Assembly: GCA_028293125.1 (NCBI GenBank)
Contig: JAQGPJ010000079.1
Coordinates: forward strand, 69,817 to 117,295
DNA from: Verrucomicrobiales bacterium
GTDB taxonomy: Bacteria; Verrucomicrobiota; Verrucomicrobiia; Verrucomicrobiales; V1-33
Direction of reading: 5' to 3'
Length of the DNA: 47,479 nucleotides
Notes under the pieces: model-generated
Databases searched by the model: none
What the model was told of the DNA's origin: nothing
Seen by the model: only the letters and a program-made list of their open reading frames with translations
Shown: in pieces, positions 12,668-16,174 of the stretch
How the letters are laid out: the number at the start of each line of letters is the position of its first letter
Position numbering within the stretch: position 1 is the first letter of the stretch
Made by a program: the position numbers and the translations under genes

Positions 12668-13786
12668 ATGAAAAAACTGATCCGGCAACTTCCCAGCCTG
12701 TTGAAGGAAACCCTTAAGGAATGGCAGGATGACAATGCCATGCGACTGGCCGCAGCCTTGGCATACTACACTGTTTTTTCACTGGTTCCTCTGATGCTGG
12801 CCTCCATTGCGGTGGCCGGGCTGGTGTTTGGGGAGGAGGCGGCAACTGGTAAAATCTACAGCGAAATGCACAACGTGGCCGGTCCCCAAGTGGCGTCGTC
12901 GGTGCAGGAGATGGTGCAGGCCGCCAATAAACCGGAGAGTGGATTATTGGGTGCTGTGCTGGGTTTTGCGATGGGCCTTTTTGGCGCCTCCGGGGTGTTT
13001 GGGGAACTGATGGGATCGCTCAATCAGATCTGGGGCGTCACCCCCACCGGGGAGGGCGGTATCATGACTTGGATCAAAGGCCGCTTTCTGTCCATCGGCA
13101 TGGTGATGGGCGTCTGCTTCCTGCTGCTGGTCTCGCTGCTGCTGAACACTTTTCTGACCACCGTCACCGATTATGGGCTCCACTGGATGCCAGGGGTCGG
13201 ATTCCTGAGCCAGGCTATCGCCTTCATCCTGTCATTCGGTCTGGTGACGGTGCTGTTTGCAGCCATGTTCAAGTTTCTGCCTAAAACCGCTATTCAATGG
13301 CGGGATGTCTGGGTGGGGGGAGCGGTCACCGCTCTCCTGTTCAGCATCGGAAAATTCGGACTGGAGCAATATTTGGCACGGTCCAATCCCACCTCCGGGT
13401 ATGGAGCCGCCGGAGCTCTGGCGCTGATTCTGGTGTGGGTTTATTACTCCGCGCAGATTTTCTTCTTCGGAGCGGAGTTCACGGAGGTTTATGCCCGCCG
13501 CTTGGGATCACGCACTGCACATGCCGCGCCTTCGGAGGTCAAGGAGCACATCATGTCCGGCGGGGCTCCGGCTCCCGATGCTAAAGCTGTTGCCGCAGGT
13601 GAAATCCCGGAACCGGTCCTGGCCTCCACTTTGGCGGCCCGTCAGCAGCAGGTGCCTGTGCCTGATCCGAAGCCCTCAGCCCTGGGGCAGTTCGCCGCTC
13701 TGGCTGTGGCAGGCTTCCTGACCTACCGAACGGAAAAAAAAGCGAGGAAACTCGAAGAGGAGAGCAGAAGAAGCACGGTGGACTGA
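12668..13786 (+). CDS. YihY/virulence factor BrkB family membrane protein
   Basis: The protein has 372 residues and several hydrophobic helices. It carries the family N-terminus (W-x-D-D-N-A-M-R-L-A-A-A-L-A-Y-Y-T-V-F-S-L-V-P) and the central GASGVFGELMGSLNQIWGV region. YihY/BrkB proteins are inner-membrane proteins of uncertain function. The old name ribonuclease BN for this family is an error in annotation history. The C-terminal tail of about 90 residues is soluble and Pro/Ala-rich, then Lys/Arg/Glu-rich, including a run of eight adenines (about 13734-13741) near the end of the gene. The ATG at 12668 is preferred to the upstream in-frame start because it sits just before the conserved region. 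It is followed by about 200 bp before the Bat operon. Confidence 0.9.
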   Translation: MKKLIRQLPSLLKETLKEWQDDNAMRLAAALAYYTVFSLVPLMLASIAVAGLVFGEEAATGKIYSEMHNVAGPQVASSVQEMVQAANKPESGLLGAVLGFAMGLFGASGVFGELMGSLNQIWGVTPTGEGGIMTWIKGRFLSIGMVMGVCFLLLVSLLLNTFLTTVTDYGLHWMPGVGFLSQAIAFILSFGLVTVLFAAMFKFLPKTAIQWRDVWVGGAVTALLFSIGKFGLEQYLARSNPTSGYGAAGALALILVWVYYSAQIFFFGAEFTEVYARRLGSRTAHAAPSEVKEHIMSGGAPAPDAKAVAAGEIPEPVLASTLAARQQQVPVPDPKPSALGQFAALAVAGFLTYRTEKKARKLEEESRRSTVD

Positions 13787-13993: not shown

Positions 13994-15127
<1,134 letters not shown>

Positions 15128-15274
15128 GGGGAGGAGGAGGGGGAGGGGTTATTGGTTAATGGTTATTAGGAATGGCTCTTAAAAAACCTCCTCCCGTCCC
15201 ATTTTCAGATTCCCGGCTCCCCGCCCATTAATTAATAACCAATAACTATTAACCCCTCCGCCCCGCCTCCCCCC
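15128..15274. repeat. Inverted heptamer-repeat element filling the moxR-DUF58 gap
   Basis: The left arm holds three perfect tandem heptamers GGTTATT, GGTTAAT, GGTTATT (15147-15167). The right arm holds four heptamers of the same type on the other strand: ATTAATT, AATAACC, AATAACT, ATTAACC (15227-15254). Outside them lie a purine tract (15128-15146) and its near-complementary pyrimidine tract (15255-15274). The arms are about 40-47 bases and imperfect, and the middle is about 60 bases with a run of A (15180-15186). The AT-rich core contrasts with the GC-rich genes. It may be a small mobile or dispersed intergenic element, or an RNA hairpin tuning downstream expression; the sequence alone does not decide. 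The DUF58 start codon follows directly. Confidence 0.8.
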
Positions 15275-16174
15275 ATGACCTCACAGCAGCTCCGCGAGAT
15301 CCTTAAGAAGGTGCGGCAGATTGAGATCCGCACGAACCGTCTGGTCACAGACGCTTTGGCCGGGCAGTATCACAGTGTCTTCAAGGGGCGGGGCATGAAT
15401 TTCGATGCCGTGCGGGAGTATGTGCCCGGGGACGAGGTGCGCACCATTGACTGGAACGTCACGGCGCGGGCGGGGCGGCCGTTTGTGAAGAAGTTTGTCG
15501 AGGAGCGGGAGCTGACTCTGATGCTGATGGTGGATGTCAGCGCCTCCAGCGACTTCGGCTCCGGCCTGCAGAGCAAGCGGGAGCTGGCCGCGGAGATCGC
15601 GGGCGTGCTGGCCTTCTCCGCTGTCCGGAACAGTGACAAGGTGGGGCTGCTGCTCTTCACGGACCAGGTGGAGCTCTACGTTCCCCCACGAAAAGGACGA
15701 CGGCATGTCCTGCGCATCGTGCGGGAGGTGCTGGGCTTCAAGCCGAAACGGAAAGGGACGGATCTGGTCAAAGCCTTGGAATTTGTGAACCGGGTCGTTA
15801 GCCGCCGCTCCATTCTGTTTCTGCTGTCGGATTTTCAAATGGAGGGCGCCGATCAGGAGGCCCTGCGCCGCTCCCTGCGGCAGACCAACCGCCGGCACGA
15901 TCTGGTGGCCATGCCTGTGGCGGATGCCCGCGAGCGCGTGCTGCCGGACCTCGGTATCATCGCCATTGAGGATGCGGAGACCGGGGAGCTCATCGAGCTC
16001 GACACCCGCAGCGCCGCCGTGCGCCAGCGCTTTGAACAGCTGGCCGCCGACCGCGCCAAGTCGCTGCGCCGCCTCTTCAGCGCCGAGGCCGTCGATTCCC
16101 TGCCGGTGGAAACTGACCAGGCCTATGTGGCCCCGCTGATGGCCTTCTTTCAAAACCGCGCCCGTCACCGCTGA
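15275..16174 (+). CDS. DUF58 (VWA-like) protein of the Bat operon
   Basis: The protein has 299 residues and no signal peptide. The DUF58 hallmark YVPGDEVRTIDWNVTARAGR lies near residues 49-68. It is followed by a VWA-like strand with a D-x-S-x-S metal-site pattern (VDVSASS). DUF58 proteins are partners of MoxR ATPases and resemble the VWA fold. The stop codon overlaps the start of the next gene by one base (TGATG), a sign of translational coupling. The gene is second in the moxR-Bat series. Confidence 0.93.
   Translation: MTSQQLREILKKVRQIEIRTNRLVTDALAGQYHSVFKGRGMNFDAVREYVPGDEVRTIDWNVTARAGRPFVKKFVEERELTLMLMVDVSASSDFGSGLQSKRELAAEIAGVLAFSAVRNSDKVGLLLFTDQVELYVPPRKGRRHVLRIVREVLGFKPKRKGTDLVKALEFVNRVVSRRSILFLLSDFQMEGADQEALRRSLRQTNRRHDLVAMPVADARERVLPDLGIIAIEDAETGELIELDTRSAAVRQRFEQLAADRAKSLRRLFSAEAVDSLPVETDQAYVAPLMAFFQNRARHR

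Follow-up and report, generated by a model that had tools for sequence, protein, structure and literature searches.

The gap between moxR and the DUF58 gene in a Verrucomicrobiales genome is an inverted array of RGTTAWT heptamers, regular far beyond chance, and the same architecture brackets genes for the 23S rRNA intervening-sequence protein (IVP; PF05635), a four-helix bundle related to Avd (PMC10053308). We read this array, with confidence that is about evenly balanced, as belonging to a widespread family of intergenic elements with heptamer arms, of which it is a member without a gene. The full element of this family consists of a 5' arm of tandem, usually 7 bp, repeats, an IVP gene, and the same repeats inverted as a 3' arm, and many copies, including the one described here, have just a short spacer between the arms. 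The window referred to below is the whole stretch of 47,479 nucleotides that was analysed.

The element between moxR and the DUF58 gene

The element occupies the entire gap between the moxR stop codon (15125–15127) and the DUF58 start (15275), and its parts are listed in Table 1. Genes of the VWA/BatA type lie past DUF58 in the window, and a gene for a BrkB/YihY-type membrane protein (12668–13783) lies upstream of moxR. A first-pass annotation of the sequence had described a plus-strand array of three perfect tandem GGTTAWT heptamers and a minus-strand array of four, and both arrays are present as described, the minus-strand units reading GGTTAAT (15248–15254), AGTTATT (15241–15247), GGTTATT (15234–15240) and AATTAAT (15227–15233), that is, two exact GGTTAWT and two variants. 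With up to two mismatches allowed there are five two-unit arrays in the window, all of them in this gap, where 0.14 are expected and none of 100 shuffles reaches five, which bears out the view of the same annotation that the regularity is beyond chance.

Table 1. Parts of the heptamer element and its neighbouring genes, in window coordinates
Feature	Position	Strand	Basis
Whole element, inverted heptamer hairpin	15128–15273	none	sequence, arm complementarity, fold (RNA and DNA)
Outer purine (G-rich) tract, 5' arm, abuts moxR stop codon	15128–15146	+	pairs with 15255–15273 in predicted fold
Three tandem heptamers, GGTTATT GGTTAAT GGTTATT	15147–15167	+	array scan
Spacer (loop), 59 bp	15168–15226	none	blastn and shuffle comparison
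Four heptamers, GGTTAAT AGTTATT GGTTATT AATTAAT	15227–15254	-	array scan
Outer pyrimidine (C-rich) tract, 3' arm, abuts DUF58 start codon	15255–15273	+	sequence, predicted fold
MoxR-type AAA ATPase, upstream neighbour	13994–15127	+	Pfam AAA_3 1.8e-64
DUF58 protein, downstream neighbour	15275–16174	+	Pfam DUF58 2.7e-78

The two arms (15128–15168 and 15233–15273, 41 nt) are 78% complementary when aligned ungapped and 85% over 41 when one gap is allowed. The predicted RNA fold of 15128–15274 has an energy of -67.4 kcal/mol (z -5.1, with 0 of 200 shuffles as good), and the corresponding z values are -3.9 for the minus-strand RNA and -5.2 for DNA. The outer purine and pyrimidine tracts, which had been noted as complementary, do pair in this fold. 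The strong RNA hairpin proposed at that stage holds as a prediction; the accompanying suggestion that it separates moxR from the rest of the operon gains no support from a consensus scan, which detects neither an intrinsic-terminator-like nor a sigma-70-like site in the gap. There is no Rfam match to a known RNA family in the window.

The 59 bp spacer is too small for any gene, and the element is thus gene-less. No second copy of this spacer is found by blastn (E 0.01) in about 0.81 Mb of the same genome, and it weakly resembles the spacer of the paralogous moxR–DUF58 site G000:C13 (score 14, reached by 3 of 2000 shuffles).

Dispersal of heptamer arrays

The idea of a dispersed element of the lineage, also raised in the first-pass annotation, agrees with what we observe. 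Three-unit arrays with up to three mismatches give 94 matches in the window's own genome (G000; 6.48 Mb, 99% complete); the control column for this count was the pattern read backwards, which is nearly another phase of a tandem heptamer and is no real control. A search of 57 genomes, counting the own genome, shows heptamer arrays in 14, and these 14 include two of the four genomes of the same genus. Long perfect GGTTAAT arrays of ten or so units are seen in a same-order genome (G016:C157:4658–4727 and C262:326–388), and in the own genome the 82 kb contig G000:C38 is very dense in arrays of three types, with about ten sites.

We sampled 810,749 bases (12.5%) of the own genome as 40 stretches, mostly around array matches, together with the window. 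The period-7 segments in this sample comprise 37 of the GTTAWT type and 43 others, largely of the GTTTTCA, GGGTTCA and ATTTGAA types. The strong period-7 excess seen in parts of our analysis stems from such a sample, picked around known sites; an excess across Verrucomicrobiota was considered and rejected, since 40 other loci show two segments at period 7 as against eight at period 6 and eleven at period 9.

When segments are paired by complementarity, inverted pairs number 22 in the own-genome sample, 16 of them with a gap of less than 300 bp, as against eight pairs in the same orientation separated by up to 2.5 kb. Gene context was scored for 17 of the 22 pairs (gaps of up to 333 bp), the other five, with gaps of 566–2349 bp, being excluded as likely pairings between neighbouring elements. 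By a crude gene caller 14 of the 17 lie between tandem genes, three between convergent genes and none between divergent genes, and the background of all gaps of 80–500 bp divides into 133 tandem, 54 convergent and 60 divergent (60/247); the chance of 0/17 divergent is about 0.009 by a hand calculation based on the same rough gene calls. The arms of most of these pairs are less than 30 bp from the nearest crude CDS end, and one pair overlaps a crude CDS. Some elements are nested, with GGGTTCA arms outside and GGTTAWT arms inside (L131 6276–6468; L139 18111–18346). One spacer family (L002sp) recurs across own-genome sites at 71–88% identity, and the window spacer lies outside it.

Comparison of moxR–DUF58 gaps

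In the nearest named relative (L031, DUF58 79% identical) the same gap is 40 bp and is without arms. At a paralogous moxR–DUF58 site there are inverted RGTTAWT arms in G000:C13 and in G004:C67, and the same-genus G003:C52 reads simply TGA CCCCC ATG. G004:C101 is likewise filled at a third paralogous site, where G001 and G003 have no arms. The filled gap at G004:C101 (L113) also contains a long CCAAGAA-type array of nine units directly adjoining the RGTTAWT arm, which is a second unit expanding inside one element.

We compared 77 moxR–DUF58 gaps, four of 81 loci having been dropped as lacking a recognisable moxR end. The gap is shorter than 40 bp in 29 of these, and in six, that of the window among them, period-7 arms form a significant inverted repeat. 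Two of these six (L103 and L084) are gene-less with other units, and three (L036, L039 and L041, from Desulfobulbaceae and relatives in a different phylum) have a four-helix-bundle gene with AATTACG-type arms inserted between moxR and DUF58; the protein encoded by the L039 insert matches PDB 2RLD at 3e-34. Neither this IVP insertion in the same gap in three Desulfobulbaceae genomes nor the arms around IVP genes described below formed part of the first-pass annotation. The comparisons of filled and empty sites reveal no target-site duplication or exact junction, and are too diverged to exclude one.

Heptamer arms around IVP genes

The own genome has a single IVP gene (G000:C19:50022), which is bracketed by AGGTAAAAGGGTTCAGGGTTCAGGTTTCAGA arms with a GGGTTCA unit, and it also has gene-less copies with AGGTTAAAGGGTTCAGGGTTCAG arms, some of which contain nested GGTTAWT-type arms. 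Because of this armed gene together with the IVP inserts in the L036, L039 and L041 gaps, we tested the flanks of PF05635 genes more widely. Inverted tandem-repeat arms, mostly of period 7, are present around 58 of 70 IVP genes of relatives, these 70 being taken from more than 150 listed places, first by score and then 20 by genome. In the first set, from 57 related genomes, the local score of the inverted arms exceeds 14 in 43 of 50, and it does so in 15 of the 20 chosen by genome. Arms are also found at 13 of 14 plasmid IVP genes from Cyanobacteria, Bacillota, Bacteroidota, Spirochaetota and Chloroflexota, the 14 examined being from 25 records with an IVP match.

The controls behave differently. 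Genes for ribosomal protein L19 never pass the threshold (0/30, largest score 13), and mismatched left and right flanks pass in 2% of 397 pairs (Mann-Whitney p 8.6e-13 for the first-set test), three of 400 pairs having been set aside for a score of at least 60, taken as homologous flanks, or for too short a flank. The 30 GIY-YIG loci, less L262 with its 938-codon open frame, divide into 13 UvrC-like genes, of which none passes, and 16 short genes, of which two pass (one a self-palindrome); this last count speaks against arms as a general property of accessory genes.

The best repeat lag is 7 in 33 of 43 armed genes of the first set, 13 of 15 of the second and 12 of 13 on plasmids, other lags being 8, 10, 11 and, in one case, 5. 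Arms of period 8 or of mixed 10/11 period are seen in the IVP elements L230, L233, L182, L183 and L237. In 40 of 43 relatives' elements G outnumbers C in the 5' arm.

The heptamer type of the window arms IVP genes in G056 (L298, GTTATCAGTTATT) and G040 (L188, AGTTAAT). A permutation test for RGTTAWT among the arms of 50 IVP genes gives two loci against a mean of 1.0, which is not significant, and L298 and L297 were added after this test from G056, picked as rich in the unit. Gene-less and gene-bearing copies that share arms within one genome are seen with the GGGTTCA arms of G000, and the window's unit is on an IVP gene only in other genomes. The same-genus G001 and G003 have IVP genes but not the window heptamer, and the IVP genes examined in them (L312 and L313) have no arms; the same-genus G002 (68% complete) has the window heptamer and no IVP match. 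We also considered DGR-like copying by a resident reverse transcriptase, which is not supported, as there is no RVT_1 match in the own genome or in G056, a genome with 16 IVP genes.

Variation of the arms and sites of IVP elements

Both arms of one element share a unit, and units differ from element to element. Arm similarity increases with IVP identity, most such pairs being orthologous sites; among non-orthologous IVP pairs of at least 60% identity, 7/15 have an arm similarity above 12, as against 27/1445 pairs below 45%, although these pairs are not independent and represent few independent cases, largely from Nostoc. In three related Nostoc plasmids the numbers of units in the two arms are 4+4, 4+4 and 3+3. 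The arms of the Planktothrix elements L251 and L255 are rearranged differently, and concerted change is clear only in the Nostoc trio. We rejected three-frame stop codons as the cause of period 7: the AATAACC of the window carries TAA, but many IVP arms (GTTTGCG, GACAGGG, GTGGGCA) are stop-free on both strands.

IVP elements separate cas2 from cas1, stand between restriction genes and between drmD and a methylase gene, and interrupt a C5 methyltransferase gene. In Nostoc and Anabaena plasmids (L240 and L241) the heptamer-armed IVP genes between cas2 and cas1 are antisense to both, and cas2 and cas1 adjoin without an insert in Nostoc UHCC 0870 (L253) and N. edaphicum (L254). In the Nostoc plasmid locus L246 (825–1290), as compared with L260, the element splits the C5 DNA methyltransferase gene with 328 bp replaced, which is not a clean insertion.

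Discussion

The window element is of one kind with the inverted G-rich heptamer arrays of Rehm 2015 (PMC4692102), GGGAATC in Xanthomonas, with 70–75 convergent inverted pairs per genome, and GGGGA(C/T)T in Nostoc PCC 7120. Both consist of tandem heptamers in two close arrays of convergent orientation, and both are dispersed, intergenic and near the stop and start codons of aligned ORFs. As described there, the G-rich strand is sense within 50 bp of a stop codon and antisense within 50 bp upstream of an ORF, most arrays lie between aligned ORFs and few between divergent ones, and in Xanthomonas they show no association with mobile elements and an increased stability of the flanks. The unit in the window is different. 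Its heptamers carry GG only and its outer tract, with G runs of 4, 2, 2, 5 and 4 as read from the sequence, has three runs of at least three G, so that it lacks the four G-tracts of at least three G that make up the G-quadruplex feature of the Rehm arrays. IVP and four-helix-bundle genes go unmentioned in that paper (the terms 'four helix' and 'xcc0516' give no match), and in the open-access literature searched we found no paper tying heptamer arrays to IVP genes. That the arms belong with the IVP gene seems to be a new aspect of these arrays.

Other known repeats share some of these features. The TAACTGA repeats of Beggiatoaceae, some Cyanobacteria and Bacteroidetes (MacGregor 2015, PMC4679880) are likewise tandem heptamers, mostly intergenic and near start codons, with no tie to gene function, but as reported there they have a single unit and their 169 sets are almost all direct (one indirect repeat), with no hairpin and no IVP. 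A gene between arms is also seen in the intervening sequences of 23S rRNA, for example in Coxiella, in which terminal inverted repeats form a long stem around a PF05635 (IVP/S23p) gene and which, with their scattered distribution, have been proposed to be selfish or mobile (PMC4990558). Those sequences lie within rRNA and are excised by RNase III, the 28 bp stem is not described as heptameric in the account consulted, and the window copy, in contrast, is gene-less and lies between protein genes. The survey of Zhang et al. (PMC3936711) records 23S_rRNA_IVP genes in cas loci, read as a possible CRISPR-associated function; L240 and L241 share with those loci a PF05635 gene between cas genes, and the survey as available reports no repeats. 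MITEs resemble the window element in being short, gene-less and intergenic with inverted ends and a gene-bearing relative in the same genome, but here the ends are tandem repeats that vary among copies, the gene-bearing copy encodes IVP and no transposase, and no target duplication is seen in the rather diverged sites compared. REP/BIME elements with RAYT are GTAG/CGTC-tagged palindromes with a Y1 transposase; the arms here are tandem heptamers. As to the IVP-bearing family that we propose, the window has the inverted period-7 arms of one unit but lacks a PF05635 gene between them.

How such elements arise is a separate matter. In a plausible scheme they would spread by movement or by being copied. 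The IVP protein would recognise their arms, in RNA or DNA form, and assist in spreading or maintaining them, and copies without a gene would rely on IVP produced at another place in the genome. We infer this role for IVP from the association described above, its kinship with Avd (PMC10053308) and what has been proposed for the 23S rRNA sequences (PMC4990558). By their position at gene borders within operons the elements would form a long hairpin in the transcript, which RNase III may cut as it does in 23S rRNA, and would therefore be tolerated. Counting against spread by IVP are the lack of exact junctions, the replacement in place of a clean insertion, the absence of a reverse transcriptase from G000 and G056, and the armless IVP genes of G001 and G003. 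The permutation result for RGTTAWT, a window spacer that is not itself repeated, and the report on Xanthomonas of stable flanks and no tie to mobile elements also count against our preferred reading. A stronger form of the proposal, which we put forward tentatively as less likely than not, is that PF05635 genes are the portable core of phylum-spanning selfish elements with renewable short-tandem-repeat arms, in which IVP would read its own 7-nt unit as RNA or DNA, both arms would be rewritten together, and gene-less hairpins would be parasites or relics.

A serious rival, although we consider it rather unlikely as the whole explanation, is that these are locally grown simple repeats, in which slippage builds the 7 bp arrays, hairpin-templated strand switching copies the inverted partner, no movement takes place, and IVP genes just happen to lie in permissive gaps. 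Such growth would account for a unit that is common to the arms of one element and different between elements, for unit numbers that vary in step as in the Nostoc trio, and for the CCAAGAA array that grew beside the RGTTAWT arm in G004; heptamers are, moreover, the commonest long simple repeats in many genomes, and the polymerase footprint has been suggested as their cause (Mrazek 2007, as cited in PMC4679880 and PMC4692102). It leaves unexplained why IVP genes are bracketed and L19, UvrC and most GIY-YIG genes are not, why related IVP genes at unrelated sites have common units, and why the L002sp spacers are alike across sites of one genome. Growth in place by slippage and hairpin-templated copying may well renew the arms under either account.

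Two explanations in terms of host function appear weaker. A regulatory hairpin, in which the 40 bp stem at the moxR end would act as an insulator, processing site or mRNA stabiliser and tune DUF58 relative to moxR, is consistent with the strong fold predicted on both strands and with the preference of gene-less elements for tandem over divergent genes; we nevertheless think it improbable, as L031 and most relatives do without the element in this gap, no terminator-like site accompanies it, the elements adjoin unrelated genes, and no regulatory role could be identified for the Xanthomonas repeats (Rehm 2015, PMC4692102). A binding array for a protein was the last idea of the first-pass annotation. 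Such an array for a host protein of the cold-shock, S1 or Csr type, with one heptamer per subunit as proposed for the TAACTGA repeats, would suit the regular 7 bp period and the heptamer binding by CspB cited in MacGregor 2015 (PMC4679880). Inverted pairing would not be needed for such an array, and the variation of units within one genome (GGTTAWT, GTTTTCA, GGGTTCA) counts against a single sequence-specific reader, so that we regard this as very improbable.

Under the preferred reading of a widespread heptamer-armed family, two long-standing loose ends, the surplus of heptamer repeats in the intergenic DNA of bacteria and the role of the IVP four-helix-bundle genes, appear as one architecture. 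If IVP acts on the arms, such elements would form a class defined at its ends by a period and not by a sequence. It also offers an alternative view of the IVP genes in cas and restriction operons, as inserted passengers and not immune genes, and the selfish-element reading, if true, would explain both the excess of heptamer repeats and the scattering of IVP genes over rRNA, cas and restriction operons.
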